64,000 bases of DNA from Rhizophagus irregularis (taxonomy: Eukaryota; Glomeromycota; Glomeromycetes; Glomerales; Glomeraceae). The DNA lies in NCBI RefSeq assembly GCF_026210795.1, contig NC_089457.1, positions 310,001 through 374,000 on the forward strand, in the 5' to 3' direction. Made by a program: the position numbers and the translations under genes. Numbering within the stretch: the stretch's first letter is position 1; each line of letters opens with the position of its first letter. This document shows, piece by piece, positions 7,211 to 62,519 of the stretch. The notes beneath the pieces were generated by a model. That model saw only the letters and a list, made by a program, of their open reading frames with translations, had not been told where the DNA came from and did not search any database.

Positions 7211-9124
7211 AGGATCATCACAACTCTTTCCTGAATTTTTGAAAATACTAATAAAAATTTATTTTTGAAATTTTCGTTCGAAAATTTCTAAGTGCTCGTT
7301 CAAAATACTAATATTTCCACAGTTACTTTCCTTTTTACTGAGCTTTACACTATGACTACACCTCCAGCTCCTTCTGTTATTAACCCAGATATTCTGCTGC
7401 CACCGCGTCCTGTTATCTCTGCTCCCTCTGGAGACCGACCTTTGTCTCCTACTAATACCGTTGGCGTACCAAACAAACGTTCGCGTACTGTCTCTGAAGA
7501 CGCTATGAATGTTGATATAACTTCGCCCTCTGCTTTTGCTCCCAACCTTATTTCTACCATTCCTTCTGGTCTTCCTGTCAACAAAGTTCACGTGATTACA
7601 TCTCCTCAAAATATTACCACTCCTGTTGAAACTGTTGACGCTTCTATCCATGCTCCCTCTAACGCCAGTGGTAAAGGTAAAGCTGTCGCCTTTGATATCC
7701 CAGAACGATGACCATCTCCTGATGGGAATGCTGCTGCTATCAAATCCGCACCCTCTCGTTATCATGTTGCGACCTATCTACGTGATGCGCCTGATGCGTT
7801 CAAAACTAAATTCACCACCAATCGTTCCATGTGTGATGAAGTGGATTGTTCACTCTCCCGTTATTCTTCTTATGGTGCTCGCGCACGATGTGAAGGATCA
7901 GGCGATAACAAGAAAATCCTTGTCTTCTTCAATAATCATGATGATTATACCAATTGTATCACCTCCTCACGTGCCGATCTTCTCGATTTGGCCTTCAGTC
8001 ATTATTCCCCTGCAGACGCCAAGCTCAGTGATGAAATGAAGTCTTTGTTCGTCACTGATATCCCACTTTTCCTAACCGAGACTCAAGTCCGTCAGGCATT
8101 TTCCCGATATGGCACTGTAATCAAGTGCAAATTTACTCCTAGGAAACATTACTATAATGGACATATCCAGTTTTTCTCCGCGAATGCAGTTACCCAATTT
8201 AATGATATTTGGGCGATCATTTGCCTTGGTAATTCTTTACGTGTCTGCCTGGCATCTTTTTCGAAATCCCAACGCGATAGCTGCAGAGAACATGTTGCTA
8301 TCCTCGCCGGCATCCCAAAGAATATTAAAGAAGCTGACTTGTTGGAAATTGCTACTCAAGTTAACGCTAAGGCCCTTAACGTTCCTCTATCTATCAGTTC
8401 CTACAAGCCTAAACCCTATGTATATTTGAATTTCTCCTCATTTGAATCTCTTGAAGCTGCCAAAGAAATGACCGTGGCTTTCTGCGGCAAAGGATTAACA
8501 TGGTACCCTCCCAATGAAGCACAAACTTTATGCCACGTTTGTGGGCGTCCTGGTTGTTTTCCCTCTGTATGTAATCCTCGTATTACACAGAAAGTGGATG
8601 ATCGCCTTAATAAACTTTATTCTCGCTTCAATGCTGGCCCTAGACGTGGTCATCAGGATTCACGCCAAACACGTAAAAATTCCAATTCCCATTCAAGATC
8701 GTGATCCAATTCTAGATCCCGCAATAATAATTCATCATCTTCCCGTTCCGATAACAGCAACAATAATACTAACACTTCTCGTCCTAATACTTCTCAAAGT
8801 AACAACCAGACCAACAATAATACTAATAATCACAGGAACAATAAAAATTCTTCCAGTTCTACTCAACCTCTACTCATCAGGAAGTCACGGGAAAAATATT
8901 CATCACATGTATATTTTTGCAAATCATTTACATCATAATTTTTATTATTTTAAATGTACATGTAATATTTAATATTAATAAACATCACCAATGAGATTTT
9001 TATCATGATGTGCATTATTTAATAATGAAAATTCAATGTTTATCAAATATGATGTTTTCAAAAATAAATTTTTATGATATCAGCCCCTATTTATTATCAT
9101 GTCACGTGAAATAATCTTAGCAAC

Positions 9125-9514
9125 ATGATAAACGAAACTTCCTCTTCTTTATCCTTTTATTTTCCCCTTTCCCGCCCTTTCTCTTCCCCACATTTCCCTT
9201 CTCTTACTACTAGTTGAAAAAGGAATAGTATTCGGCCTTAGTAAAATTCGGCCTATATTTGACTAGTACTTAAAATTAAAAAATTTGACCATGATCTACG
9301 ATTAGATATTGGTCGAATAATGCACTAATTAAACATCACGTCATCACACGTTACGCATATCAAAAGTTTAAAAAAGGATCATCTTTTTTAAACTTTTTCC
9401 TTTCCCTTCCTTTTTCCTCCTTTACTCCTTCCCCTATCGTCCTTCCCTTCCCTTTCATTCTCCCCTTTTTCTCACACCCTTTTTCTCACACCTTTTTTCT
9501 CACACTTTTCTTCT
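9125..9514 (+). promoter_or_regulatory. Pyrimidine-rich leader before module array A (possible promoter/5' region)
   Basis: There are long C/T tracts on the plus strand (about 9130-9210 and 9395-9515), ending with three repeats of TTTCTCACACC just before the first GTAAGT at 9515. Similar TTCTCACACTTT repeats precede the small zinc-knuckle gene at 54854. The position upstream of the array makes a promoter or 5' leader possible; nothing in the sequence proves it. Confidence 0.3.
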
Positions 9515-10960
9515 GTAAGTTTCATTTCGAAACTTACATAATTTTTTTTTAAATTTTTTTTTTTTAATTTAAGAAACCACTTAACGTTTCTTATTTTATT
9601 TTTTTTGTAGGACGCGTACTAGGAGGACGCCGGCTTGAATACGACGAAACTGGACTTTAAGGTAGTGAGAAATGGGGAAGGGAGGGTTTGTTATTTTTAA
9701 TTAAAAAAATGAACTAACGTTTCTTTTCATTATTTTTTTTTTTGTAGAACGTCTACTAGGAGGACGCCGGCTTGAATACGACGAAACCGGACTTTAAGGT
9801 AGTGAGAAATGGGGAAGGGGGTTTGTTATTTTTAATTAAAGAAACGAACTTTTTTTTTGTAGAACTCCTACTAGGAGAACGCCAGCTTGAATACGGAACC
9901 GGACTTTAAGGTAGTGATGGAAAAGGGTTGGGATTTTGTTATTTTTAATTTAAGAAACGATCTAATGTTTCTTTTCGTATTTTTTTGTAGAGTTCCGGTT
10001 TCTTCGGCTTTGGGACTTGGGTCTGGTAAGTTTCGATTCGAAACTTATATTTTTTTAATTTATTTTTTTTTTAATTTTCTTGTTTTTTTTTGTAGGTATG
10101 ATTCTTTCGGCTTTGGAACTTGAATATATGGTAAATTTCGATTTGAAATTCGAAACACAACTTTTTTTTTCTAATTTATTTTTTTTTAAATTTTATATTA
10201 TTTTTTTTGTAGGTATCGGTTCGTTTATTTTTCGATTAAATAATATAATTTTTTGATACCTTCTTCGATATCTAACTCATTAGATGAAACCAATAAACTA
10301 AGAATATCTTTACATGATGGCTTCTTGAACTTCTTCGGTTGGATTTTTTGACGTTGGATGGCTGGCTTCAGTGGTTTCTTTTTTGTAGAATGGTACCTTG
10401 CTGTAGATTAACGTCTTGGAATGAATTGTTAAGTTTTGAAGCAAATCTTTGCTTCAGAACTTTTTTAAAATTTATTTATTTTTTTTTGATTTTTTTTTGC
10501 AGGTACCGGTAGATTGAGTTCCCGGATCTTAGACGATATGATTTGTAAGTTTCGAAAGTAAAGTTTACTTTTGAACTTTTTAATTTATTAATTTTTTTTT
10601 CTTTTTTTTTGCAGGTACCGGTAGATTGAGCTTCCGGATCTTAGATGATATAATTGGTAAGTTTTGAAAGTTTAGTTTACTTTCGAAACTTTTTTCTTTA
10701 AATTTTTTTTTGGTATGTTTTGAAGAAACTAACCATTTCTTCTTTTGTCTATTTTGTAGGAATCATTTTCGAGATTTGGATCGGCTTCTCAGGCAAGTTT
10801 CGAAGTTTCTCTTTGAAACTTTTTCTTTTAAATTATTTTTTTTTTATTAATATTTTTTTTTATCTTTTTATTGTAAGTTGTACTTCCTGGATAAAATCAG
10901 TTCAAAGAATAACTTCGAAACTTTTTTTTGTGAGTCCTCCGGAGTATTCAGTTGAATTAA
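9515..10960 (+). other. Module array A: micro-exon/intron-like units in tandem
   Basis: Exon-like blocks come in similar pairs or triplets: 9611-9661, 9748-9798 and 9863-9910 (51, 51, 48 nt, containing CTAGGAGGACGCCGGCTTGA or close); 9991-10025 and 10096-10130 (35 nt each); 10503-10544 and 10615-10656 (42 nt each); 10760-10792 (33 nt). They are separated by intron-like blocks of 64-103 nt that start GTAAGT, GTAGTG, GTAAAT or GCAAGT and end in a T run plus GTAG or GCAG, for example 9515-9610, 10026-10095, 10545-10614 and 10657-10759. The donor often lies in a hairpin, for example GTAAGTTTC pairing with GAAACTTAC at 9515. Stops occur in all frames of the blocks I checked, so a protein is unlikely. 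An unusual spliced non-coding RNA is possible; function is unknown. Confidence 0.6.
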
Positions 10961-13900
10961 TTTAAAAGTGGTAAGTTTCGTTGCGAAGCTTACCATCTTT
11001 TTTTTCATTTTCTTTAACAGAAATACTAAATTTTCTTTTTCTTTATTTTTTTTTTTGTAGGTTTCAAGGGATTCAATTAGAAATGTTAGAATTTGAAAAT
11101 GGTGAATTTCTTTGTGAAGCTTTGCCATTTTTTTTCTTTTTTATAGAAACGTTGTTATTTTTAATAGGATTAATTAGATTAATATAGCTTTAGTATAGAT
11201 TGTTATAATGTAATTTAATAAAATAATTTGTTATTCAATAACATTTAACATTGACATATTAACATAAATAATAAAAGATTGATATGATGTAAAATAATGT
11301 ACATCGTAATGTATGGGCAATGAACATCTTGATTTGGTGATGAACATCAAATGTTGCATCGGTAGTACATTGCAGGGTCCGATGTTCAGCATTTCTTTAT
11401 GATGTACATCAAGTGACTGATGTACATTTGATGAACATTTTTCCCGTGACTTCCTGATGCTAAACCTTATTCTGTCATTTCTATACCACCTACTTCCCCA
11501 TCTGACAATCCTGCCCATACACTTCCTCAACATATTATTGATGATTTAAAGGCACAGATCAAAGAGATCGCTAACACCCTACGTACTCTAGAGGAAATGA
11601 AACTGTCTCTTGGATGAATGATACTATCACGTCCCATGAGTATAGGCTAACTGAGCTTGAATCAATGATGAATTATGACAACCCTGGTGACTCTGATTTG
11701 TATCCGCCTCGTGATGATCATGAAAATCAAAATCATTCTTATGATAATGGATGGGATGATGCCCCAACCCAAGACATGAATTCTGGATTCAATCTTCCTC
11801 CTCATACTTCACCTTCTCTCATGGACACTTCTCCTGATGCTTCTTTCTCAGCTCTGAATCCTAACTCCGTCTTATCAAGAAGACATGTCCCGTTACCTAA
11901 CTCCCAACCTACTATTATTGCTCCCGATGCTAATACTTCCCATTTGCAATTGGAGATTTCTAATGTCACCAATACACAAAAGAATCTTTCTGCCCAACTT
12001 GGTTCGATTATGGAAAAATTGGACTCCTTCTCTCCCTCAAAACCCTCCCCTTCCAATGATTGAACACCAATTTATATCGGGTGCTTCACAGGGATCTCAC
12101 CCCCCTGACAGTGCGCTACTTAATATTAATAGTCCTAATAACTCTCCTTCTTTGTTTTCCCCTCTTATTAATTTTGGACAAATCAATGTTAATGGTTTGT
12201 GCTCCCCTGTTCGTCAGTTGCATTTGTTAAATTATTTCTCCATTCTTCTTTTGGCGTTTTATCTTTAAATAATACTCGTCTTACTTCTTCTAGTGCTAAA
12301 TTTATTTATCAAATTGAACATTCCCAACATAATTTTAAGTTCTATTGGGCTCCTTTCCCTTCTAATTCACAACCTCATGATGGTGTTGGTCTTTTACTTC
12401 GCCATCTTTTACATAAACATGTTCAGAAAATTGATCCTTGGAAAGGTCGCCTTTTAAAATTAGATCTTTTTTTCCATCAAACAAAAATTTCTATCATTTC
12501 TGTTTATATTCCTCCCTATTATTCTGTTCACTATAAAGAACGTGATGCTGTTTTTGTCCAACTTAATTTATGGTTTGATAAAGCCCGCTCTAATAACTAT
12601 CACGTAGTCATCCTTACTGATTTTAATGCAGATGAAATTTCACATTCACATCTTCCTCAACATCATTTGAAAATTTTACGATCACTTTTTTCTCGATATT
12701 TTACGGATCATCAATCCCATATTTCTTCAATTTCAGGTCCTAGTCCTACTTTTTATCATCAGAATGGTTCTTCAAGACTTGATTATATTTGGTCATCCCC
12801 TGGATTTCCTGCTCCCGGTCTTTTCTCTTATGTTGAATCTTGTCCTATGCTAAACGATAATCAATTTACTGATCATCGTGTGCTCTTTACGGCCTTTGAC
12901 TTTAGCTCATGTTTCGCTACTTTATCCAAAGCTAGATTAAAACAAAAAAGCGAACAACACACCATTTTTCTTTACAAGAATTTAAAAGAAGATACTTGGG
13001 ACACCTTTTCTAATGAAGTAAACTCACGTCTCGAGTTGTATTTGGCCACACACCATCCTTCCGTATCTTCACTTTCAGCTCTTTCCTTGGACAAACTTTG
13101 GCACGCTCTTAAACGCTCTATTCTTGGTGGTGCCATTGATTCTCTACCATTTCAACATGTATCCAATACTCATCACCATAAATATTCTCCAGAACTTATG
13201 AAGCTTATTGCTATCAACAAATTCTTGGATAGATTATTGTTTAAATTGACCACATCTCGGACTAATCATCCCGCTCAAATTTCACAAATGATTAATTCTT
13301 TACCTACACAATTGATTCTTTTGAAATCTCTTTTAACAGATTATACTATACCTATTTATAGTACAACACCACTTCCTGCTTTTGTTAAATTTTTGCGTTC
13401 CCAAAAAGCTTTGGTCTCTGCTTATCTTTCCACGCAATTTCATCAGCATCGTGTGAATTCCATTGAATATTATACTGCTCTTAGAGATGAACATTTCTCT
13501 TCATCGCCAGGTTCCTTTATTTCTTCAGCCCTGTCAGTGGAACATCGCTCTATCGTTCTTAATAGAGTTTTAGTTGTAATTGACTCCAAACCCACTTTAC
13601 TTACCGAACCTTCAGATATCAAACAAGCTGCCATCAAACATTTCCAATCAGTTGTTACTCCTCCTTTGATCCAATATTCTTCTATTGACGAATTTCCTCC
13701 ACGTTGGCAAAGAGCATATACTCCTCTTTCTGACATTAACTCATCTTTATATAACTCGGTCATGTCTCCTATCCTGGACGTTGAATGGAAGAACATTATC
13801 AACTCTATGCCTAATAACAAAGCCTCTGATCCTTCTATGATCTCGTATAAGATGCTCAAACATTTAACTGGAGAAGCTTTCAATTTGTCCCTTGTATTAG

Positions 13901-18496: not shown

Positions 18497-18547
<51 letters not shown>

Positions 18548-41190: not shown

Positions 41191-41769
41191 GTAAAAAGAT
41201 GATTTATAGTTCGTTGGAATCGCCTCATCGAGACGAATCGAATGGTGGTAAGCTCATCTTTCTGTGATCAATATTGACGGAGTTATTACTTAAAAACCAT
41301 TTAATATTTTTTAATTTCGGAAATTGATCTAGTGATTGGATTTCGATGTATCTTATACCATTAGATTCGTCTCATCAAGACGAATCGAATGGTAGTAAGA
41401 TCGTCTTTCTAGGATCAATATTGGCAGAGTTATTACACAAAAACCATTAATATTTTTTTAATTTCGGAAATTAATCTAGTGATTGGATTTCAACGTATTT
41501 TATACCATTAGAACCGTCTCATCAACACGAATCGAATGGCGGTAAGATCATCTCTCTACGATTAATATTGGCGAAGTTACGATACAATAAAGTTTTAAGT
41601 ATAATTCTGGCTAAAATTATATTAATTTTAAGATCATTTGTTGTTGCGTCAAGAATTTTTGGCCAGAATTATGATATACAAATATAAGAAATTTTATATA
41701 TAGTCACATCTCTTTATAATCACCAAGTATGGACTGTCCCAAATGTGTGACTATAAAGAGAGTTGACTG
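41191..41769 (+). mobile_element. MITE M2, right part
   Basis: This resumes at the L3 target-site duplication (41191-41208), contains the GAATCGAATGG sub-repeats and ends AGAGAGTTGACTG at 41769, followed by TA (41770-41771) and array D. Confidence 0.92.
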
Positions 41770-43901: not shown

Positions 43902-44862
43902 CAGTCAACTCTCTTTATAGTCACACATTTGGGACAGTCCATATTTGGTGATTATAAAGAGATGTGACTATATAAAAAATTTCTTATATTAGTATATCAT
44001 AATTCCGGCCAAAAATTAACATAATTTTGGCTAAAATTATACTCAAAACTTTATTGTATCGTAACTCCGTCAATATTAATCGTAGAGAGATGATCTTACC
44101 ACCATTCGATTCGTCTTGATGAGACGGTTCTAATGGTATAAAATACATCGAAATCCAATCACTAGATTAATTTCCGAAATTAAAAAAATATTAATGGTTT
44201 TTGTGTAATAACTCTGCCAATATTGATCCTAGAGAGACGATCTTACTACCATTCGATTCGCCTTAATGCGACGAATCTAATGGTATAAAATACATCGAAA
44301 TCCAATCATTAGATCAATTTCCGAAATTAAAAAATATTAAATAGTTTTTAAGTAGTAACTCCGTCAATATTGATCACAGAGAGATGAGCTTACCACCATT
44401 CGATTCGTCTTGATGAGGCGATTCCAACGAGCTATTAATCGTCTTTTTACAATCACTAGGTACCGAGAAATTTGGCAAAATGTTAAATGGCGCAGTAAAC
44501 GTAAATCAAGAAATATAATAATGCCGATGCTTACCATTTTGTTGAATAACTCATCAGCCAGTGATCGTAAAAGGATAAAAATACCACCATTCGATTCGTC
44601 TCAGTGAGACGATTCTAACAAGCTATGGTACATCTTTGTACGATTATTAGATGCCAAGTTATTTAATATATTCTTTATAATACTGTGATTATAAACGGTT
44701 CTTTTTAATATAAGATTTTTGAGGATAGGTGTGATAGTGACTATAGATAGGTTGTAACTATATAGGATAGATTTTAATAATAAAGTGTTTTGAACATTCA
44801 ACTGGTGTGACTATATAGTAGAATGTGACTATAACGGGAGTGACTATAGAGGGAGTTGACTG
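43902..44862 (-). mobile_element. MITE M3, complete (961 bp), pogo/Tigger-like
   Basis: It has terminal inverted repeats CAGTCAACTCTCTTTATAGT and its near complement (ending AGAGGGAGTTGACTG), with TA on both sides (43900-43901 and 44863-44864). TA target and CAGT ends fit the Tc1/mariner superfamily, pogo branch. It has no transposase. The uninterrupted interior shows what the LINE and SINE insertion sites in M1 and M2 looked like before insertion. Confidence 0.92.
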
Positions 44863-48540: not shown

Positions 48541-50190
48541 TGAAAAAACGCTGATTCAGTACTTTTTTGATAAAAAAAATGAAAAAGACGCCAAAAAATG
48601 GCATATTTTTTTATAAAATGATATGAAAAGATGCCGAAATAGCATCTTTTTTGATAAAAAAAATGAAAAAGATGCGAAACAGCATCTTTTTTCATGAAAT
48701 AATACGAAAAGATGCTGAAATAGCATCTTTTTTAATAAAAAAAATGAAAAGATGTGAAACGGCATCTTTTTTCATAAAATAATACGAAAAGATGCCGAAA
48801 CAGCATCTTTTTTAATAAAAAATGAAAAGATGCAAAACAGCATCTTTTTTCATAAAATAATATGAAAAGATGCTGTTTCGGCATCTTTTTTGATAAAAAA
48901 TGAAAGAGATGCCATTTCGGTATTTTTTTTCGTAAAATAATATGAAAAGATGCCGAAACAGCATTTCTTTTCATGAAATAATACGAAATGATGCCGTTTC
49001 AGCATCTTTTTCATAAAATAATATGAAAAGATGCCAAAGCGGCATCTCTTTTCATGAAATAATACGAAAAGATGCCATTTCAGCATCTATTTTCATAAAA
49101 TAATACGAAAAGATGCCGAAACAGCATCTTTTTTAATAAAAAAATGAAAAGATGCAAAACGCATCTTTTTTCATAAAATAATATGAAAAGATGCTGAAAC
49201 AGCATTTCTTTTCATGAAATAATACGAAATGATGCCGTTTCAAGCATCTTTTTTCGCTAAAATAATATGAAAAGATGCCGAACGGCATCTCTTTCATGAA
49301 ATAATACGAAAAGATGCCATTTCAGCATCTATTTTCATAAAATAATACGAAAAGATGCGAAACAGCATCTTTTTTAATAAAAATGAAAAGATCTGCAAAA
49401 CGCATCTTTTTTCATAAAATAATATGAAAAGATCTTTGAAAGCAGCATTTCTTTTCGTGAAATAATACGAAATGATGCCGTTTCAGCATCTTTTTCATAA
49501 AATAATATGAAAAGATGCCGAACGGCATCTCTTTTCATGAAATAATACGAAAAGATGCCATTTCAGCATCTATTTTCATAAAATAATACGAAAAAATGTT
49601 GTTTTGCATCATTTTCATAAAATAATACGAAAAGATGCTGTTTCGCATTTTTTAGAAAAAATGCTGTTTTGGCATTTTTTCATAAAATAATCACGAAAAG
49701 ATGCCGAAGACAGCTCTTTTACTAAATGAAATATCGAAAGATGCCATTTTGGCATCTTTTTTGATAAAAAAATGAAAGAGATGCTGTTTTGGCATTTTTT
49801 TCATAAAATAATACAAAAAGATGCCATTTCGACATCTATTTTTATAAAATAATACAAAAAGATGCTATTTCGGCATCTATTTTTATAAAATAATACAAAA
49901 AGATGCTATTTTGGCATCTATTTTTATAAAATAATATAAAAAAGATGCCGAAATAGCATCTCTTTTCATGAAATAATACGAAAAGATGCCATTTCAGCAT
50001 CTTTTTCATAAGATAATATAAAAAGATGCCGAACGGCATCTCTTTTCATGAAACAATATGAAAAGATGCTGTTTTGGCATCTTTTTTGATAAAAAAAAAA
50101 TGAAAAAGATGCTGTTTCAACATTTTTTTGTATAAAATAATATGAAAAGATGCCAAAATATCATTTTTTTCATAATATAACACCGTTTAA
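48541..50190. repeat. Hairpin array E (GATGCC stems, ~40-bp spacing)
   Basis: About forty hairpins with stem GATGCC/GGCATC or GATGCT/AGCATC around AAA, GAAA or TTT-type loops, flanked by A and T runs. Spacers alternate between ATAAAATAATACGAAA and ATAAAAAAATGAAA types. Spacing is about 40 bp, the same as in array D, although the stems differ. Frames through it are artefacts. Confidence 0.92.
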
Positions 50191-50194
50191 CATT

Positions 50195-50580
50195 TTTATT
50201 TGTACATTAACAAAAAAACGCTTTTCCCAATAGTTTTTAACCGTGTTAGTAAAAAAAGTAGCGAAAAGATTTTTATTTAATAAAAAAACGTCTTTCGCAA
50301 CATTTTTTAACTGTATTAATGAGAAACGTTGCAAAACGTTTTTATTTTATAATTTAATGAAAAAAAACATTTTTTGCAGCAATTTTAACTATATTAATAA
50401 AAACATTGCGAAAACGTTTTTTATTTGATAATTTACTGATAAAAAATCATTTTCGCAATAGTTTTTAACTGTATTAATAAAAAAGTTGTGAAAAACATTT
50501 TTTATTTGATAATTTGCCAATAAAAAGTCATTTTGCAACGTCTTATAACTATATTAAAAAAAACGTTATAAAAGACTTTT
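50195..50580. repeat. Hairpin array D3 (CGTTGCGAAA type)
   Basis: Four or five units related to arrays D1/D2 (AAACGTTGCAAAACGTTTTT, AAACATTGCGAAAACGTTTT), with ATTAATAAAA and TTTGATAATTTA spacers. It mirrors the left array inside the right terminus. Confidence 0.8.
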
Positions 50581-50589
50581 TTATTTGAT

Positions 50590-50819: not shown

Positions 50820-51370
50820 GCGTGGATACCGAATCCCAAAGATAAGTTTTGAAAAAAGAATTTCAAAACTTTCTTTAATAAAAACGTTTTTATACTAAAA
50901 AGCGTTTTTTTTTTATTATTTTTATATAGAAATATCAGTTCCAGCGTGGATACCGAATCCCAAAGTTAAGTTTTAAAAATTTTTGAAACTTTAATATAAA
51001 AACGTTAATTTTTAACATTTTTTTAATTTTTTGTAAGGATATCGGTTCCAGCGTGGATACCGAATCCCAAAGTTAAGTTTTAAAAAAAAAATTTGAAACT
51101 TTATAAAAAAAACGTTTATAACATTTTTTTGTTTTTTTATATAAGAATTTGGCTCCAACGTAAATGCTGATATTTTAGGTAAGTTTTGAAACAAATGTTT
51201 CAAAACTTTTTTAAAAACGTTTTTTAATAAAAAAAAATGTTTTTTTTTTATATTTTTTATAATAGGAAATCAGTTTCAGCGTGGATACTAATATTCCAGG
51301 TAAGTTTTGAAACAAATGTTTCGAAACTTTTTTTAAAATATTTTTTAATAAAAAAACATTTTTTTTTTAT
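50820..51370 (+). other. Module array B: micro-exon/intron-like units, left of CACTA2
   Basis: Exon-like blocks of 33-36 nt (50931-50965, 51038-51072, 51146-51178 and 51266-51299, approximate) read like AGTTCCAGCGTGGATACCGA plus ATCCCAAAG, or end in GATATTCCAG. Intron-like blocks start GTAAGTTTTG (or decayed ATAAGT/TTAAGT) and end TATATAG, TGTAAG or TAATAG. The last intron (from 51300) is cut by CACTA2 at 51373 and ends at 61124. Arms of the donor hairpin include GTTTTGAAAC/GTTTCAAAAC at 51183-51206. No coherent protein. Confidence 0.6.
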
Positions 51371-51715
51371 ACTCACAGGTCAAAATATAATAAATCGGCC
51401 ACCAATCGGTCATATAACTGATTGGTAACTGATTAGTTACTGATTCTTTTAATCAGTTACCAATCAGTCATCAATCAGGTGTTAATTCCAATCGGTTACC
51501 AATCAGTTATATGACGATTAGTAGCTGACTGATGACTAATTGTCAATCATTAACCAATCAGGCATCATTGGGTCATCACCTACAGGTCGAATTTATTAGG
51601 CCTGTTCAATTCCATTCAGTTGGATTTTTCTTTAATTTTTTTTCGAACTACGTAATTTTACATATAAAGCACCGGAACCATCAGTTTTCAGCGATTTTAC
51701 ATATAAAAACACCGG

Positions 51716-51778
51716 AACTATTAGTTTTGGCATTTTTTTTTGTAATTTTACATTTAAAAAATGCCAAAACTAATAGTT
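51716..51778. repeat. Perfect 23-bp inverted repeat
   Basis: Arms 51716-51738 and 51756-51778, starting AACTATTAGTTTTGGCA, with a 17-nt centre. The same words occur singly just upstream (CACCGGAACYATYAG). Confidence 0.9.
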
Positions 51779-52249
51779 TCGGCATATTTATTTAACCAAA
51801 TGACCGATTAATGACTGTTTTGTCAATCAGTCGTCAGCCAGTATGTGACCGATTGATGGCGGGGATATAAAAATGTCATCGATCGGCGTTCGTTTTAATA
51901 CATTATAAAATTAAGGTCAATCACCACCTATCGCATATGCCGGTTGGTGACTAATTGGTAGCCGGAAGAATAGAATACTAAAAGCCGTGGTCTGTTGCCT
52001 CTTGTTATCTGAAATTATTCTCAGGGACAATTTTTTTTCTTAATGTGCCGGTTTGTGTATAGTCGATCAACTTTACTTGTACAACTGAATAGGTTTGGCT
52101 GAATTATATAAATTATTATAAATTTCACTACCGATTGAAATTTTTTTTTTTGTAAACGTATTTTATTAATTTTATTAAATCTCTCCATACCAAAACTTTA
52201 AAACTCAATTTAAAGTAATCACGTAAAATTCTTCTAAATCTATTTTTAT

Positions 52250-53930
52250 TAAATCTTTGATTTTTTTATTATTTTTTTTTGTTTTCTAATTTTTCTAATT
52301 CTACCTCGCTTGTGTTTGTCCCATTTTTAGATCTTTTCTTTTTCCTTTTCAAATCCTTGAAGATTCCCATTTGTTTTTCCAATTCAATCGTCTCATTACA
52401 TCTTTCAGTCCATATTTGTTTTTGTAATCTTATCAAATATTCATCACAAATTTCTCGCATTAATATTATTAGCACAACAATTCATCCACTTCTCATTTAT
52501 AAGTCCTCTAGTCAATTCTCTAATAACACCTTCCGTAACTATAATATTTGACCTCGTCGATGCCACTTCTAAAATTTTGTCAATGAAACCACTCCTAATC
52601 TTATCTTTGTTAATACTTCACTGGTACTTTCTTTTAATAAATAAAATTCTGTATTAGTATCATTTTTGGAACACGACCAAACATGATCCCACGTTTCTTT
52701 TTCGATCTTGCATCTTGGACACTTCATGTTTAGAATTCCCCATACTTCTCTTTCCAAAGTGTTTCATACGTCGGTAATATTTTTAGAAAATTTTTAATGC
52801 GCCAGCATCTAATTGACACGTCTTTCTATTCATTGTATTTTTGACGTCATGATTTCATTATTTATCAATTTAAAAGTTTCTTTCCAATCGATGAAAATGT
52901 TCGCTCCATTTACTTCAATAAAACAATCTTTGACATAGTCTAATAATATTACATTTATTTTTGTTATATTATTACTAAGCTCTTTAAACCAGTATCTATA
53001 CCCTCCTTCGATCGGTATATGATTCCAACGTAGACTATATTCATCAATTATCAAATTGTTCAAATTTATTTTCACTTCAGGTATAACTTCTTTACACTTA
53101 ATTAATTCCTTTTTCAAGGCTGGTAATTTCAAGTCTTGCATCGTCAAATCCATATTTTTGAGCTCCAATATTGTGTTAACAAAATTTAAATAGCCCGTCA
53201 TCTAATTTTCTTCTCATACTACCTGTTTCACTATATTTATATAACCACTCTACTATCCTAATATCCGTTCTTAAATCTAATATAATATTACATGGTAACA
53301 TTATTAATGCAACTATTCTCATTTTTAATGATTTAATTTTTCCTTCAAAATTAAAATTTATTGACTTCATTATTCTTTGGAATCACTTCTATTCCAAAAA
53401 ACCCGTTTAGACACAGATCAGATCCTTTCTGAATTATACCTTCAACCTGTAAAATCACCTCTTTGTCTCATTTTCCCTGTTACAAATTCTTTAATTTTCA
53501 CAGAACCTTCTATTTCTTCTTCGACCCATATTTTATTAACACATTCTTCTATATTACTATAAACTTTCATATTATTGTAATTTTTTTCTTGTAAATTCAC
53601 CAATATTTTCTTTAACTACCATTTCATTTTTCTCATATATATTTTCCCTCGTCATGTATGGTTTCATTAATGTTATATCATTCTTATCTTTCACTACCCT
53701 CCCCTTAATCAATAAAGCTGTTTCTTTCTCAATATAAATCATACATTTTTCTTTATTTGTCTTCCTTCTAATATTGAACGCACATCCTTTACAATCAATT
53801 AAATAAGGTGAATTATAATCATTATTACTATCTTGTAGTTCTTTATTCGATCAAATGTTTTCCAATTTCATCGTATTTCCTATGACGTGACTTTTTACTT
53901 CTAATACTATATATGATCTCGTTATCTTTG
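52250..53930 (-). pseudogene. Relic of a second LINE family (RNase H and C-terminal part)
   Basis: Minus-strand fragments in several frames: an RNase H-like segment near 53250-53370 (IILDLRTD), a central region (52830-53201) and a zinc motif CPRCKIEKETWDHVWSC near 52690-52740, with the same CX2CX8HX3C spacing as L1. The last fragment (52269-52475) is Lys/Glu-rich. Many stops and shifts. The sequence is unlike L1-L4, so this is a different LINE family that inserted into CACTA2. I recall related LINEs in Rhizophagus; this is not checked. Confidence 0.6.
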
Positions 53931-54853
53931 TTCCTTACCGATTGAAATCTATGCGCAAGAATTCCTCTTATATGATATGCTGTCTACATTACAGACTAAT
54001 TACGATTATAAATTTTGATTTGATCGGTTGCAGCAATATTTTATCAGTTTTCTTTTTCGATTAGATATAGCTTTTTTCTTCTGATTACCGATTTTTGTCA
54101 TTATTTTCTGGCTTTTTTGTAGTAGTAAACTTGGTAGTAAACAAGTAATTTTTTAAATAATTTTCACTTGATACAAAATATATTTAGCGATTATCACTTT
54201 TATGTTAAGAAAATAATTAATTATATGTGTTAAATATATAAAATAAGTTATTTGCATAATTGAAATAAAGTTTAAAGACCGATTAATAAATTGAATCAGG
54301 ATTGTTAAGAAAAATTCGCGAGAATTTTCCTTGAACTGCTTAAAAAACACGTTTATTGATTTAATTTTAATAGAATAATAAATATTTATTTAGCTCAAGG
54401 TTTACGTCTTTTATGAATTTCGATACACAAATTACCAATTTAAAAAATTTCATTATAATTGAATCTATTTTTGAGCAAATAGCACATTTTGGTGGCGAAA
54501 TGAGATCTGTTTCACAAATTCCTATTAGATTCTGATATAACCAATAATTTGAAAGTACATCTTGTGACCAATATGACCGATATAGGCTTATCTACTGGCT
54601 TATCTATCATGTTATTGTACCATATCCAGCATATTAGCAAAAATGTATACTTCTATACTGGGTAGCATTGCATCATATATATAAGATGTAAGAAATTTCT
54701 CACACTTTTTTTTTTTTTGATAAAATTTCTCACACTTTTTTTTTTTTTTTGATACACTTTATTTCTCACACTTTATTTCACACTTCATTTTATATATAAA
54801 GGATGTAAGGATGTAATAAATGTCTCACACTTTATTTCTCATTTTTAATAACA
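53931..54853. other. AT-rich interval with TTTCTCACACTTT repeats upstream of the zinc-knuckle gene
   Basis: 54100-54680 shows no gene. At 54695-54840 TTTCTCACACTTT occurs five times, partly separated by T runs ending in GATA. The repeats end directly before the ATG at 54854, so they form its 5' region. Confidence 0.5.
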
Positions 54854-55306
54854 ATGAATGACGGTAATAATGAAAATACCACGGAAGAGATTGAAATTAT
54901 AAACGTTGGTAAAGAAGGAATATCTTACGGCGAACTAAAAAGCGTCCATAGCACGTCCATGTTGACATTAAGCAACATGTCGAAAGTTATATCGTCTCTT
55001 CCATCAACGTCAATGTCAACATCATCATCACCAACAAACCCAATAACATTATACTCTTCAAAAAATGTTAAAATTTCAAAAACAAACAATAATTGGTTGA
55101 TTCCGTATTATCCTTTCAAAGAAGGCTGCCGGGTGTGTCATTATTATGGACATTCTTTGAAAAATTGCCCTAATCTTAAACCTGAATTTCGAGGAGTAGA
55201 TCGTTGTATACATTGTTGGGAACCAGGGCACTTAAGTGGTAATTGTAGTAGGGATTCAAAGGTACCACCGTATAATGAAGATTTTTTATCCCCGAAGAAA
55301 TCATAA
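54854..55306 (+). CDS. Small protein with two CCHC zinc knuckles
   Basis: The product has 150 residues. The N-terminal half is Ser/Thr-rich and probably disordered. Two zinc knuckles follow: CRVCHYYGHSLKNC (about 96-109) and CIHCWEPGHLSGNC (about 120-133), both exactly CX2CX4HX4C. Such knuckles bind single-stranded nucleic acid, as in Gag proteins or RNA-processing factors. The frame is open with a plausible ATG and a basic C-terminus. It lies inside CACTA2 between the LINE relic and the transposase, on plus, facing the end of the transposase. It may be a captured host gene, a third CACTA gene or a gag-like remnant; CACTA1 has no counterpart. Confidence 0.65.
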   Translation: MNDGNNENTTEEIEIINVGKEGISYGELKSVHSTSMLTLSNMSKVISSLPSTSMSTSSSPTNPITLYSSKNVKISKTNNNWLIPYYPFKEGCRVCHYYGHSLKNCPNLKPEFRGVDRCIHCWEPGHLSGNCSRDSKVPPYNEDFLSPKKS

Positions 55307-55727
55307 ACAATTTATTTTATAAATAATTTTTTTCTTTTATAATTTTTTAAATAATTTTTTTTCTTTTATAATTTTTTAAATCTTTTTTTTTTTTTTAAAA
55401 ATTTATCATGTGGTTGCCGGTGGCAGTGATAAATTTGGAAAAAGTTCACCTGGACACCGGGTGATGTGGTGACTTTTCTTTTTATATACTGTATATAATG
55501 TAATAAAATAATAAATATACCGTAATAATATAAAATTATAAGTTCTTAAATTTAATTTGCTAAAATATAAATTAGATTAATTCCTGCATTTATTAAAAAT
55601 TAATAAAATTGACAATATAAAATCAATCGGATTGCATTGCATTTAATAAAATTTTATTAAATTCTACTTTATTATTAGTTTTATTGTAATGTTATATGAC
55701 AAAAGTGTTTTCTTTTTGTAGTAGCAA
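55307..55727. other. Convergent 3' region between zinc-knuckle gene and transposase
   Basis: No gene. A hairpin with arms AAATTTATCA/TGATAAATTT spans about 55398-55437, with a GC-rich centre unusual for this DNA, followed by CACCTGGACACCGGGTGATG. It may act in 3' end formation; unproven. Confidence 0.4.
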
Positions 55728-58700
55728 TTAAATATGAAAGTGTCTGTTTACTGGAATAACCGCCATATATTTAATAGGGTTCCTTTTACCTATTGTAAAA
55801 TCACTAGTTATAAATTGGGCATAAATGTTATGAACTGGTATAATACTGTCTCTACCTATATTGTAAAAATCATATTTCCATATCTCAATATTACAACTAT
55901 TATTGTCATTATTGACCCGACATTGAAATCTTTTTTGTTGATCTTCTGCCGGTAAATACCACTTAACGAATGCTAACTGATGCGTATGGTAGCCATCTGG
56001 AAGTTCAACTGTATGCTCAAAGAAGAACTGAACTTGACCAGGGAACGCTTCAACTATTTCATTTTCTTGTATAAAATTAGCTAATATATATGAATTCTTT
56101 TTATATTGAGGTGAAATTACTGATCCGAAAATTTCAGAACCAATTCAGACACGACCAAACTGATTAGCTCAAGAATGAACAATAATCTGCTGGTTTGAAT
56201 TTCTCAGCTTTATTTGTCTGCTTGAGACATATTTGTTAAATGATATAAAATCCAAATTATACGCATCTTTGTAATATTGTACTGCAGTGATCGCAAATTT
56301 CTTCAGGAAGATTAACCTTTAATCTTGTCGGTTTCATCATTTTGCCGGGGAATGGTTCCTTGCCAGTAATTGTTTCATCAACATCAAGACGAAAGCTTCT
56401 CATGAATCGGTGCATTTCATCAAAATTAAATTCATCGTATGCAGATAAGCTGCCGACAGATCAACGGGCGTAACAACTTTAATCCTTCTTGAGTCTCAGA
56501 TTATCCGATTGATCAGATAATAAATTATCAAGTTTCTGATTTTGCATTATGATACGTAGGAGCTCGACTCAATTTGACGATGTAATAAGAATACGAACCT
56601 AAATACCAAACATTATCATTTAATAATATGGTCGTAAAAAAAAATTTATCAGCCTCAAAAACTCACCTAAAATACCGTTCATTCTTTCGAATGAAAAACA
56701 CCAGAACGAATACAAGGGACCATAATCATGGCAGCATTCAGTAAGATGAAGGGAAAGGTAAATGTTCGGAGTGATGTATTCTGATCCGTAATGTTCTTCG
56801 ATTAATTTAGCAACAGTTAACAACCGGCTATGTGCTTCATTTAATGAATTTCTATCAATAATGCGTGATACTAATAAGAAGCACGCTTTAACGAAATTTG
56901 CTAAAATTTTCCTATCAGATTCATCTAAAAGATCCCAAAGAATTGGTGTAGCATAAATCATGATGAAGGATCTCCATTGATCGGCTGTAAATGTGGAAAA
57001 TCCATCTCCAGTTGCTATATTATCAGGAACTCTCCCTAAATCGGCGGGTATTTTGATTCTTTTTGCCCGTTTTTCGATTAATTCGAGGTCAGATTTTGTT
57101 AATTTTCCATTTTCAATCCATAGTCGCTTCACAATCCAACGAGTAATCCCAAGAAAAAGACAGTACATCGGATCCACAATTAGGTGCTTAATCGGATTGA
57201 AATAAGGAAGCCTCAACATTTCTGACCAGCGTACATGTGTATCAGAAACATGTTGTTTTCTTTCTTCATTGGATATGCAGCTCAGCCAACCTTCAGCATT
57301 ACGTTGATGTTCATCTACACTTCGCTCTCTAAACCATTCTCCTATATTATCAAATCCCCCGAAGTTTGACCTTTTGTTATCACCATTTCTTTCAGCGCGT
57401 TTATAGCATCTATGGCAGCCAACTAATGCCGATATGTGGCCACACAATTTTCACGCTGCGGGGATATCGTTTGAACAGCAAATGATGGCTAATCTGATTT
57501 TCTTTCCTGTTGGATGTTTTGATGACACTGGTAAGTCAAAACCATGCCAAAATTCTAGCAATACATCAACTATCGGGGCAAGGTAATGGTTTATATGGTG
57601 TAATTTAACTTCTGTGGGTCCCAGTAGTAGACCAAGTGTAAGCATGTATTCCTTCTTGAATCTAATATCACGAGGAAGATTACAGATGACGCCATAAATC
57701 ACACACACATAGAATTCTTCGAATCAAATGGCTGGAACCGAATCCAGGTTTAACATTATTCCCAGATGAGTATCTGCTGTTTCTGGGGCAAAAAATGGCG
57801 AAGGATCTGGGATATCATGTTGTGAGGAAAAGTTTTCCAAATATCGCCGTCATAAATATCAAACATTAACGCCATTGAATTCACTCCGATTTGTCCATTT
57901 TCGTAAAAAGCTCTTCAAAACCTGCTCGTTGATACAATGCAACTAGCTGTGTCTTTAAGCATGGTAGAGGGTAAATCATTATCGGCCGCCAAATATATCC
58001 TTTAGATATTGGTACCTTTTTTAATAAGACTGTATTGCAAAATTTTTGTTGAATCTTTATCGGATGATTTAAGGGAGCTCGACATTGTTGCATTTTGTGC
58101 TGGAGTCGGCTGAGCTTTTGGAAATGACTTCTGTTGGATTGAATAATTTATTACATTGGGGACATACTGCATAAGTATTTGATTTTTTAATAAATCCCAT
58201 TAGTTTTTTTGCCATATAGGCAGATGAAGGAAAATTTTCAAATCTATTCTTATCGATTTCCAATAAAACCAACTTGAAAAATTTAATTAACGCGTCGATT
58301 GCTGAATCGGATAGCTGGAATCTTGTTTGATACTTAAAAATCCAAAGTAAAATCCATGTATCACTAAAGTTCACGCGTGTATTAGAAGTTTCAATAGTAT
58401 CATCAAAATCGGGAGCAGAAAATTGCTTCATAGTTAATGCTTCATCATCATCTGATAGCGTTTCATCATCAATTGGCAGAAAATCTTCATCACTATATTG
58501 TTGGCAAGCTTCTGCCGGGTTAATAAATTGAAGCCTGGCATGCCTGCCATCACGATTTTTAATAGTTGCAGGATTCAATCCTGAAACTTTCCTTTTCTTT
58601 TTATCAGGTTCTTCCATTGCCAGCCGCAACTTTTCCTCCTTTGCATAGTGTTTTTCTCTCGTTCTCGACTCAGTCCACTTACCATTGCATTTTTTGCAAT

Positions 58701-58797
58701 TGCATGGCACTTGTGGTCTTACTTTCGTAGTTTTTGAAGCTACCGGTATAAAGAATTGGTTTTTTTTAGATTGACCAACTGTTGTTTGTTCTCGCAT
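55728..58797 (-). pseudogene. CACTA2 transposase (Tnp2/Transposase_21-like), multiply broken
   Basis: The N-terminus MREQTTVGQSKKNQ is followed by CNCKKCNGKW and a Lys-rich and then acidic region. Conserved motifs match CACTA1: CGHISALVGCHRCYK, LPYFNPIKHLIVDPMYCLFL, GFSTFTADQWRSF, LHLTECCHDYGPLY and FSFERMNGIL, and a C-terminal IIPVHNI block ending in NRHFHI at 55728. An intron is likely after GILG (about 56600-56670). Frameshifts or stops separate 58069, 57881, 57708, 57451 and 56560, and the region 55960-56560 contains more. It is clearly more decayed than CACTA1. Divergently oriented to the gene at 59453. Confidence 0.85.
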
Positions 58798-58799
58798 CT

Positions 58800-59452
58800 T
58801 TAAATATAATGTGACTGAAAAATTAAAAATGCGCGTTTACCCAATATGATGGTATACGCGGCATAACCTATTTAGGATAAATTAAATGATGTCACATACT
58901 CTCTCCCTACCGATAAATATAAACACGTAAATAAAAAGAAATTTTTTTCACTTTAGCTGGTCTCCACTTCTACGCTCCACCTTTTGAAGTCTTTTTCGCC
59001 GAAATGGGCGACAAGGTTAGGAAAGACCACAACAAAAAAGAAAGAGCTATGATAACTCAGGGACGTCATCCATGTGCAGACAAAAACCGCCAACCAAAGT
59101 CCAAAAAATATAGCACGGAAGAATCATAATATTAATAATATATTCTTAATTATTGTTTTGCGAATATTTCATTATTTCGTTCGAATATTTATTTGAATAT
59201 TTATTTGAATATTTATTTGAATACAAATTTATTAATAAAAAGAAGACGCGCACACGAGAGACGTAAAAACGAATATTATCACCCATCTTCTTGTCCGTCG
59301 GACTCAGAAGAACAATTATCAATACGTAGAAGAGAGAACCGACAAGCAGGTTAATGTTTAATTAGAAGTCTTTTGACCTTTTTACTTTGTATCACTTTAC
59401 ACTACTTTACAATCCTAACTCGTATACATGTAATACGTTGATGCTGACTTAA
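58800..59452. promoter_or_regulatory. Bidirectional spacer of CACTA2
   Basis: It lies between the divergent transposase and second gene. It contains GAATATTTATTT three times (about 59178-59222). The 114-bp repeat of CACTA1 is not present here. Promoter role inferred from position only. Confidence 0.4.
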
Positions 59453-60629
59453 TTGGAAAATTACGAACATGAAGTTGTGGAAACTTCTTACCATGTAACA
59501 AGTGATTCGGAATCAGCTTCCGGTGACAAATCTGGTAATTCTGAGACCTCTGATGACGAATCTGGTAATGCTGATAGCGAATCGACTTCTGACGATCCCG
59601 ATTTGATCTCTGACAATAGTGATTCTGATTCCAATTTTATTCCAAAATATTATTTTTCAAAAGACAAAATGCCACACGATCTTCAGGCGGCCTTGAGAGT
59701 AAGTGAAAGTTTAATTTATTATTGAAATTGTTAATTAATGTTGTTATTCGCAATTTAGCTGGAAGTGAAATGGCTATTAAGCCAGTTCCCAGATGAAGAT
59801 AAGCTTAACCTTAATGAAACGTTTGAACAACAATCGGACTACGTGAATGAAATTATTGTACTGGCAATTATGGAATCATTAAATAAAACGATATTTCCAG
59901 TCGCCAATAAAGTTGTATACAGCATGATACATTCATTACACCGACACTGACGAGAAGAATACAAACTTAAAAAAAGATCACCAGAATTCATAGACAAGCA
60001 AAATCGAAGACGACACTCCAATAGCCGAAGAAATTCAGTAAATATTATTAATTTCTGTCTTATTCTGTAGTAATTTAGTTTGTTTTATATACACTTTTTT
60101 TTTACAGAAACAAAAAAATAGGGCAAAAATGATTAATCACTTATGAAGGGTAGGCGATCCACTAATTCGGAAATTCAATAACGAACACCTGCAGCCAGTC
60201 ATTAATCATAGTGCATATCACTCCCCCGAAATTTCCGAAACGGATGAAGAGAATCCATCCAGAAAAAGAAAAATAGTGATAAGAGATTTCAAATGGCGGT
60301 CGTCAACTGTAAGTAATGTCTTGAAATTAATAACAATTAGCATAAATACTAACCATTTTTTTTCTTCTTATGCTAAGTGTCGTATGTTTTTACGAAATTA
60401 CATAGATCGGAAGATTTCTGAAAAGTCGAAGGTTCCTAAGAAGAGAAAATATGTTTATGATAACGAAAATTTTTATGACAAAGAAGAAGAGAAACCCTGC
60501 AATGCTCCTAAATGGACTTGTACCAAATATAAAGGTATATTAAAAACACACATTAACGATGCCTGCGGCCATCAGTTTGGCAACGAATTACCATTAAGAC
60601 CGAACGAATTAAATGACAATGAAATTTAA
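59453..60629 (+). pseudogene. CACTA2 second gene (homologue of the CACTA1 gene at 21806)
   Basis: The first readable exon (59453-59700) is strongly acidic (repeats of SGDKSGN/DDESGN). It follows an in-frame stop without ATG, so its true start is lost or lies in another exon. The next exon (about 59760-60040) has LEVKWLLSQFPDEDK and a stop after HSLHRH. The third (about 60108-60305) has a TGA/TAA lesion near 60145 and then AYHSPEISETDEENP...RKRKIVIRDFKWRSS, matching the CACTA1 block. The fourth (about 60378-60629) has FLRNYIDRK and NAPKWTCTKYKG. Introns are GT-AG and short (for example 59700-59758). Function unknown; the conserved block shows that it is a regular CACTA component. Confidence 0.6.
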
Positions 60630-60839
60630 TTTCTTAATGTGATTTGTTAAATTAGAAAAGTTAGATTTTAGCTCATATTGATTGTTAAAATTAAAATAAA
60701 TAAAAATCGGTATCATTTAGATTAATTAAATATCAATTCATATATCAATGTATTAATAATAACCGATTTATGCTGTTGATTATTGAGTTCTGTTTATTTC
60801 CTATTTTCAATTAAATTGCTCGAATATTGACTAAATTGT

Positions 60840-60955
60840 GCCAGTTAAAAAAGTGCCTGATTAATGACGAAATCTTGCCGGTTAAAAAAAAGTGCCCGAT
60901 TAATGATGAAATCTTGCCAGTTAAAAAGTGTCCAATTAATGACAAAATTGTGCCG
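60840..60955 (+). repeat. Three ~38-bp tandem repeats near the CACTA2 right end
   Basis: Units GCC[AG]GTTAAAAAAGTGCC plus [TC]GATTAATGA[CT]GAAATCTT at about 60840, 60878 and 60917. The spurious frame across them has no meaning. They are candidate subterminal transposase-binding repeats. Confidence 0.85.
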
Positions 60956-61115
60956 ATTTCCACCATAAATTTACAGCAATCAGTAATCACGTCAATTCAA
61001 AGTAATTTGAATAATCAGCATTAATCGGTAAATGATCAGCATTAATCGGATAGTCCGATTATTAACTGATTGATATCTGATCACATGCCGATTTTTAATC
61101 ATTTGACCTGTGACT

Positions 61116-62160
61116 TTAATATAGAAAATCAGTTCCAACATGGATGCCGATATTCCAGGTAAGTTTTGAAACTAAAAGTTTCGAAACTTTTTTAAAAAAA
61201 CATTTCTACCGTTTTTTTTCATTTTTGTATAGGAAATCAGCTCCAACGTGAACGCTGATATTCCAGGTAAGTTTCAAAACTAAAGTTTTGAAACTTCTTT
61301 AAAAAAAAATGTTTATTTTAACATTTTTTTTATATTTAATTATAGGAATATCAGTTCTGGCGTGAATACCGAATCCCAAAGATAAGTTTTGAAAAAAATT
61401 TTCAAATTTTTCTTTAATAAAACGTTTTTATATTAAAAACATTTTTTTTATTATTTTTATATAGGAATTCAGTTCCGGCGTGGATACCGAATCCCAAAGG
61501 CAAGTTTTGAATAATTTCGAAATTTTAATAAAAAAACGTTAATTTTAACGTTTTTTTTTATTTTTTTGTAGGGATATCGGTTCTGGTATAGATACAGAAT
61601 CCCATTGGTTAGTTTTGAAAAAGAATTAAAAACTATTTAGAAAAAAACATTTATTAACATTTTTTTTATTATTTTATTGTAGGAAAACGGTTCCAACTTG
61701 GATACTGAATCCTATTGGTTAGTTTTGAAAAAAAATTCAAACCTATTAAAAAAACGTTATATTACCATTTTTTTTATTTTCTTTTGTAGGAAATCAGTTT
61801 TTTTATTTCTCTAGGTAATGTTTTGATAGATTTTCGAAACTTACTTAAAAAAACGTTTTTAGCTAAAAAATGATTTTTTTATATTTTTTTTTATAGAAAA
61901 TTGGTTCTAGTGTGGATACCGATATTCCAGGTAAAGTTTTGAAAAATTTTCAAAATTTCATTTTTTTATTAAAAGAAATGGTTAACCAACCATTTCTTTA
62001 CTTTTTTTGTAGGTTTCCCCTTCGAATTTTATCAGATCAGGTAAATTTCTTTCAAACCCAATTTTTTTATTTAAAAAATGAGTTATTGGCCGTTTCCTCC
62101 TTTTTTTGGTAGTTTTCTTCGGACTTTTATCAGGTTAGGTGAGGATTATGGGTGGATGAT
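61116..62160 (+). other. Module array C: micro-exon/intron-like units, right of CACTA2
   Basis: This continues array B. Exon-like blocks: 61125-61158, 61233-61266, 61346-61381, 61465-61499, 61572-61607, 61683-61717, 61790-61814, 61897-61930, 62013-62040 and about 62113-62138 (25-36 nt; consensus GAAATCAGTTCCAACGTGGA then TACCGATATTCCAG or TACCGAATCCCAAAG). Intron-like blocks are 70-85 nt, begin GTAAGT, GTTAGT, GTAATG, GTAAAT, GCAAGT or decayed ATAAGT, and end in a T run plus TATAG or TGTAG. Each holds a donor hairpin and a second A-run/ACGTT hairpin. Block lengths are not kept in multiples of three. Confidence 0.62.
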
Positions 62161-62519
62161 GGATGGTGGATGATAAATGGTGTATATAAATGATAGATAG
62201 ATAATAATTTAATATGCAATTTTTAATAAAACGAATTAATAAAATTTAATCAATAAATTGTTATTATAAAAATTAAAATCAGCTAAATGTACAAAAATCG
62301 GTAATAATTATTAGGTTTATTAACAATCGTCAATTTGATTTTACCAATTTGTTGCCAATTTTACTGATCGATTTGTTGACAAGTGGCAGGCATTACAGTG
62401 TAAATCGTTTATAAAATTAGTTGCTGATTTTTTTGGTACTGATCGGCTAAGGTCAGACCAAATTTCGTCCAACATTCAGCAATTTAAAATTTTGCCAAAA
62501 TGGACTATTTCGACCAGTG
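62160..62519. mobile_element. Right end of a third CACTA element
   Basis: It ends ATTTCGACCAGTG at 62519 (inverse CACTGGTCGAAAT, identical to the left end of CACTA1). The 190 bp before it parallel 24340-24530 (TGCCAATTT..., AAGTGGCAGGC, GATCGGC, TTTCGTCCAACATTCA). The matching left end is not found in the window, so arrays B/C may be its interior. Confidence 0.7.

Follow-up and report, generated by a model that had tools for sequence, protein, structure and literature searches.

What is the array of very short, exon-like blocks found between positions 50820 and 62160 of a 64,000-nucleotide stretch of the Rhizophagus irregularis genome (assembly GCF_026210795.1, contig NC_089457.1, positions 310,001 to 374,000; C29:310001-374000, hereafter the window)? 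The first-pass annotation had presented it as one array, here called array B, with the layout of a second array of the window, array A. The genome (146.7 Mb, 32 contigs) was searched with parts of array B. The overall result indicated that array B is the interior of a non-autonomous CACTA/CMC-type DNA transposon. This assignment is carried by its terminal repeats, target duplications, dispersal in the genome and an element that shares these termini and carries tnp2.

The 13-bp terminal repeat CACTGGTCGAAAT has 247 exact matches genome-wide, 124 forward and 123 reverse, against 0 and 3 for the reversed control. Relatives of array B were compared with locus L014, the best copy. The 5′ homology with L014 starts at a common point, CACTGGTC, in L012, L013, L017, L020, L021, L024, L026 and L029, and the 3′ homology stops at CAGTG or a variant of it in the window, L019, L020 and L022. 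In L011 the homology extends slightly beyond both points. CACTG/CACTA terminal inverted repeats are present at both ends in relatives, whereas the window copy keeps the 3′ end only. Identical 3-bp flanks were found in five of the six relatives with both ends (AAA in L011 and L020, GCA in L042, CTA in L044, ACA in L049), L014 being the exception. Nine other pairs of facing termini, 2.8–9.3 kb apart, were picked from 100 terminus sites among the matches listed; the 3-bp flanks are identical in seven of them and differ in L037 and L038. The unit family is dispersed: a 218-nt query of two units gave at least 157 matches at E ≤ 0.001 with 40 of 232 candidates scored, and the 3′ tail downstream of the array gave at least 40 with 40 of 128 scored. 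No Rfam match at gathering scores was found in the window.

The array element itself has no tnp2 open reading frame (ORF). A candidate partner is L031, which carries the same termini and a 796-aa ORF matching PF02992 (tnp2) above cut-off (E 2.5e-11). Among L031–L033, the Pfam scan covered L031; the ORFs of L032 and L033 look similar by eye. These three elements are 8.3–9.3 kb long with transposase-like ORFs, and GTAAGT is scarce in them. L034–L039 have no ORF of at least 130 codons, except for repeat read-through in L037 and L039. A blastn comparison of L031 with L014 found nothing in common past the ends. Therefore, mobilisation of the array element by an L031-like transposase is suggested by the termini. 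As a separate observation, another tnp2-like CACTA element lies at 17640-20648 (minus strand) of the window, 69% identical to L031 over 2.7 kb, with two ORFs and PF02992 below cut-off.

The window copy of array B consists of 14 short blocks, the first of them partial, and a terminal exon, with intron-like blocks between them (Table 1). About thirteen blocks had been counted before; the array itself stands, and the number is corrected. Eleven blocks measure 33–36 nt, and the others are a cut piece of 22 nt, one of 25 nt and one of 28 nt. A unit of about 105–125 nt is made up of a micro-exon and a short intron-like block, and the resulting alternation is called a ladder below. The series of lengths 34/34/36/35/36/35 given in the first-pass annotation proved exact for the six blocks from 61125 to 61717. 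Its four putative junction pairs also agree with the sequence, with GT at 61159, 61267, 61608 and 61931 and AG ends at 61232, 61345, 61682 and 62012. GT or GC begins 12 of the 14 donors (GTTAAG counted as GT). Because AAAGTTAAGT has a GT one base upstream, only the donors at 50842 and 61382 are without GT or GC. AG ends were found in the 13 preceding intron-like blocks and in the terminal one. The ATAAGT and TTAAGT donors reported earlier are indeed present; they are not a private decay of the window copy, since of the 24 units of L014 four carry ATAAGT and three TTAAGT.

Array B is not one continuous stretch from 50.8 to 62.2 kb, as had been supposed. No block was found in 51374-61112, which is a foreign transposon of 9.7 kb, and a single continuous array is ruled out by it. 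This insertion is flanked by the duplication ACT (51371-51373 and 61113-61115) and lies in one intron-like block between the fifth and the sixth block. Two of its minus-strand ORFs are related to the L031 tnp2 transposase, one with 55% identity over 264 residues and the other with 24% over 283; taken singly, neither gave a Pfam match. An empty counterpart is provided by an L010 intron without the insertion (...TTTTTTTATACTTTAATATAG). In L014, the aligned unit at the insertion site is TTTATAATTTAATATAG and the adjacent unit is TTTATACTTTAATATAG. The first half of the window copy aligns with positions 1627-2180 of L014 and the second half with 2291-3701. The copy has its 3′ end at 62519; its 5′ end is missing, and it begins within a block at about 50820. 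The window copy is thus dead: its 5′ part is lost, it is split by another transposon, and two of its donors are without GT or GC.

Table 1. Features of array B, its insertion and array A in the window.
Feature	Position	Strand	Remarks
Partial micro-exon, 5′ part lost	50820..50841	+	donor-like ATAAGT at 50842
Micro-exon	50930..50964	+	donor GTTAAG at 50965
Micro-exon	51038..51071	+	acceptor AAG ending 51037; donor GTTAAG at 51072
Micro-exon	51146..51178	+	acceptor AAG ending 51145; donor GTAAGT at 51179
Micro-exon	51266..51299	+	donor GTAAGT at 51300
Inserted CACTA-type transposon, 9,739 bp	51374..61112	-	broken tnp2-like ORFs 55728-58836 (-); ends CACAGGTCAAA...TTTGACCTGTG
Micro-exon	61125..61158	+	donor GTAAGT
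Micro-exon	61233..61266	+	donor GTAAGT
Micro-exon	61346..61381	+	donor-like ATAAGT at 61382, no GT
Micro-exon	61465..61499	+	donor GCAAGT
Micro-exon	61572..61607	+	donor GTTAGT
Micro-exon	61683..61717	+	donor GTTAGT
Short micro-exon, 25 nt	61790..61814	+	donor GTAATG
Micro-exon	61897..61930	+	donor GTAAAG
Last internal exon, 28 nt, different sequence	62013..62040	+	donor GTAAAT
Terminal exon and 3′ tail of element	62113..62506	+	AATAAA at 62225-62230
3′ terminal inverted repeat ATTTCGACCAGTG	62507..62519	+	terminal-repeat comparison with relatives
Array A, different terminal-repeat transposon (CAGGAAGTCACGGGAAAAAT), same ladder design	8878..11456	+	inverted ends, micro-exon/intron layout

Array A shares the layout of array B, and its block sequence is unrelated, as had been noted at first sight. 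Its element has 40-nt inverted ends that are 93% complementary, and the core of these ends has 33 + 34 genome matches with at most one mismatch (control 0). It is flanked by ORFs that resemble, by eye, parts of one long interspersed nuclear element (LINE). Arrays A and B are thus carried by transposons whose terminal repeats differ. In each of four relatives of array A (family A), 11–14 introns were called. The branch hairpin of the family A type, AACGGTTNACTAACCGTT, has 193 exact genome matches (control 0). Ten of these loci, nine single matches from 100 listed and one cluster, were examined by eye; eight are ladders and two are isolated fragments. A further ladder type is represented by L039, an element of 6.1 kb with the duplication ACT and three successive arrays with blocks of 42–45, 31 and 37 nt. 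Its ladder is central, and separate from it there are subterminal repeats of about 174 bp and 22 bp. The window block at 61233 has a 34-nt counterpart in L037 and L038 that departs from it at three positions; the same block types thus occur in elements that otherwise differ. A CT-rich leader without ATG is found in L014, L010, L059 and L062. Two small insertions were seen in these loci. One is a palindromic insertion of about 280 bp at L039:2685-2963, with ends GGTAAAAAAATG/CATTTTTTTTACC; it is not in L034 and is a small nested inverted-repeat element. The other lies inside one ladder intron of L010 (about 700-1060) and has ends like GGACCCTGGACAT...ATGTCCGGGGTCC.

Across the arrays, the donors are mostly GTAAGT, GTAAAG, GTAGTG, GTACCT, GTTAGT or GC forms, and the acceptors are TAG, CAG and AAG. 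These were criteria of the intron caller and therefore give no independent evidence for introns. The branch motif was not a criterion. In the branch and folding analysis, from which introns longer than 110 nt and duplicates were excluded, CTAAC was found at −55 to −12 in 20 of 59 unique introns of family A and in 24 of 76 introns of L034–L039; 100 shuffles gave a mean of 1.2 for each set, with maxima of 4 and 5. The branch A lies 21–30 nt from the acceptor end. The median intron lengths of 77–84 nt are similar to the lengths of host chaperonin introns, which measure 57–113 nt (8 of 15 gaps could be delimited). Folding was stronger than in shuffles, with a median z of −1.9 in family A (n = 59), −3.1 in L034–L039 (n = 60 of 76) and −2.3 in L014 plus the window array (n = 29). 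A loose stem test was passed by 431 of 780 random positions and was thus uninformative, so a strict perfect-stem test was used. A perfect 8-bp stem adjoins GTAAG at 33 of 93 sites in the family A loci and at 48 of 2600 random positions. CTAAC lies within a perfect hairpin of at least 8 bp in 30 of 60 cases in family A (random positions 5.6%) and in 7 of 24 in L034/L036/L039 (random 2.8%). For the array B type, a stem of at least 7/8 starts in the donor in 17 of 26 cases, against 13.4%. The exon end often serves as one arm of the stem in family A units, with GTAAGT in the loop. The variant stem arms covary in family A: CCAAGATTC...GAATCTTGG, CTAAGATTC...GAATCTTAG and CTAAGGTTC...GAACCTTAG. Judged by sequence, the layout matches that of spliceosomal introns in its donor, T-tract and AG acceptor. 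The micro-exon and intron anatomy proposed in the first-pass annotation is backed by the branch motif in related arrays and by the hairpins at donor and branch site, and the intron-like blocks would presumably be removed by splicing.

The claim that the block lengths keep no frame was borne out. In L014, exon lengths range from 25 to 36 nt and are divisible by 3 in 8 of 24 cases. Its joined exons have stops in every frame and contain no ATG in their first 148 nt. Since the best copy ignores frame in its block lengths and has stops in all frames, the most likely product is a noncoding RNA formed by splicing. The ladder is probably noncoding, with a reserve for the L034/L036/L039 subfamily, and a protein product appears unlikely.

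Taken together, we favour the reading that array B is the body of a non-autonomous CACTA/CMC-type transposon whose ladder would be spliced to a noncoding RNA, with silencing evasion as the conjectured benefit; we give it a probability of roughly two in three. Transcription would begin from the CT-rich leader without ATG. The host spliceosome would remove the ladder introns, and the product would be a noncoding RNA of concatenated exons of about 34 nt with an AATAAA tail. The number of units may change through unequal exchange or slippage. As a conjecture, dense spliceable introns could make the transposon RNA resemble host mRNA and so weaken small-RNA or chromatin silencing. Alternatively, they could limit the harm done by an element that lies in transcribed DNA. 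In Cryptococcus, stalled splicing reportedly feeds the production of small interfering RNA (siRNA). Intronic barriers to nuclear RNA interference are described for C. elegans in the available part of PMC5554785, and 40 AGO-like genes of R. irregularis are reported in that of PMC11075540. It is also conceivable that a splicing ladder of tens of noncoding micro-exons and compact introns evolved independently in, or was exchanged between, two unrelated transposon families of this fungus, that hairpins present the donor and the branch site, and that the purpose is splicing itself, as a mark of self that allows escape from silencing, and not the product; this extension is unlikely as it stands.

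Several results weigh against the favoured reading. Some results of the intron caller were visibly wrong, and the units are tandem copies, so that their counts are not independent. In array B (L014 plus window), CTAAC was found in 2 of 29 introns (shuffle mean 0.5, maximum 3) and a wider branch motif in 13 of 29 (mean 6.1, maximum 13). None of the eight delimited host chaperonin introns has CTAAC; therefore, the strict motif is not established as the usual one of the host. Intronless junctions were not found in a genome search with two junction patterns and up to three mismatches. With a joined-exon query, the 61 matches resemble single blocks and none is an intronless junction; a few run 7–8 bases past the junction, where the acceptor end of the intron resembles the exon end. 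In L039, the first exon has a MEPPKKK start followed by 89 open codons into the array and then a stop. L034 and L036 share this start, and part of the sequence may therefore be coding in some relatives. Finally, A/G differences outside CpG were found at 13 of 93 donor Gs and 14 of 114 acceptor Gs, with 30 of 235 and 38 of 427 in the flanks. Random changes at the GT and AG positions of other copies had been named beforehand as evidence that would speak against splicing, and this was partly seen, the splice-site Gs changing at about the flank rate. Free decay of dispersed copies is, however, no proof that the ladder architecture never worked.

These counts were taken from 12 alignments because aligning 11 elements globally gave reliable results for L014/L020/L042/L044 only. 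The 12 comprise three taken from that global alignment, seven separate stretches of at least 86% identity and the 5′ stretches of L011 and L050; other stretches were dropped. In the exons, A/G differences outside CpG amount to 177 of 639. The splice-site Gs differ about half as often as the array exon Gs, which exchange between units can yield. For purifying selection on splice sites after insertion, no protection beyond the flanks was found among the dispersed copies compared. Any selection would have to have acted on a few active copies. The differences between copies in the 3′ flank are C/T or A/G in 163 of 170 cases. As an observation in its own right, the flank divergence of L014 and its relatives is nearly all transitions, outside CpG too, as if by cytosine deamination.

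The intron ladder as an anti-silencing device is our preferred conjecture, and passive amplification is its main rival. In the latter, the hairpins of palindrome arrays are what matters, for transposase binding, replication, or as double-stranded RNA and siRNA, and the splice signals would be leftovers of one exon-intron pair, captured and then passively amplified. CACTA elements are known for subterminal repeats, and the window has other long palindrome arrays without exon-like blocks (26676-28319, 41774-43356 and 48562-50589; short palindromes repeated in tandem roughly every 40 or 80 nt), which may be related satellites or the inside of elements. The decay of splice-site Gs at the flank rate and the weak branch motif of array B point the same way. 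Against it, the subterminal repeats of L039 are separate from its mid-element ladder, and donor, CTAAC, T-tract and acceptor recur jointly in three unrelated unit types, two of family A and one of L034/L036/L039. We regard passive amplification as rather unlikely. A 147-bp tandem repeat with similar copies at 6726-7088, 41217-41579 and 44061-44424 was also noted in the window.

A protein-coding micro-exon repeat gene, effector-like or like the micro-exon genes, could have been captured by the transposon. The MEPPKKK first exons, the open run of L039 and several array B-related block types that are open in all three frames would fit such a gene. The lengths, however, follow no phase rule either in L014 or in L039 (30–46 nt after the first exon), homologous blocks differ in length by one to three bases, and the 51-nt block of family A has, by eye, TAG, TGA or TAA in each frame, in addition to the stops of the joined L014 exons. 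This origin is very unlikely, and for array B a coding repeat or SP7-like gene is ruled out by the lengths and stops of L014, set against what part of PMC11333574 describes. Chance likeness of an AT-rich satellite to introns has in its favour that T-tracts and TAG are common in AT-rich DNA. The excess and narrow spacing of the branch motif in related arrays and the recurrence of the layout in unrelated arrays make it extremely unlikely. For the architecture, chance is ruled out by the branch-motif excess, for which array B alone would be insufficient.

The transposon-borne ladder that we favour resembles several known systems in part. Schistosome micro-exon genes have many very short exons that keep frame and encode secreted proteins, whereas array B keeps no frame (8 of 24 lengths divisible by 3 in L014). 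The CACTA/CMC elements (En/Spm, Plavaka) of R. irregularis share the CACTG termini, 3-bp duplications and tnp2 partner observed here. Plavaka, of the CACTA/CMC/EnSpm superfamily, is particularly prevalent in several strains, beside many unclassified repeats (PMC11075540, in part). The available passages of that paper describe no micro-exon arrays; its library kept DNA elements of 1–17 kb, with a transposon-domain match among the criteria. In Tgm-Express, a soybean CACTA element, cargo exons are joined in new combinations by splicing (PMC1947982, in part); its cargo is host gene fragments, whereas the cargo here is a tandem, probably noncoding ladder, for which no host gene source was identified and none was searched for. 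Fungal introner-like elements (PMC4457414) and symmetrical stwintrons (PMC8469720) are likewise multiplying introns, and stwintrons end in inverted repeats from which double-stranded RNA may arise. As far as the available parts of these two papers go, they are single introns in host genes, whereas the ladders multiply in tandem inside transposons. The SP7-like effectors, probably of the same fungus, have imperfect repeats too. According to the available text (PMC11333574), a conserved intron precedes the first repeat of their genes, whose products are secreted proteins; in the present ladder each repeat is followed by an intron-like block, and L014 retains no ORF. No description of such micro-exon arrays was found in the literature searched, which was largely without subscription papers and preprints and partly available as excerpts.

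If they are spliced, the ladders would be a natural experiment on the roles of introns without a dependent protein, namely silencing escape, RNA export, control of RNA:DNA hybrids and intron birth. They could also provide sets of naturally occurring introns with independent variation in stems, donors and branch sites. For R. irregularis itself, the ladders could explain part of the large unclassified repeat fraction of its genome.

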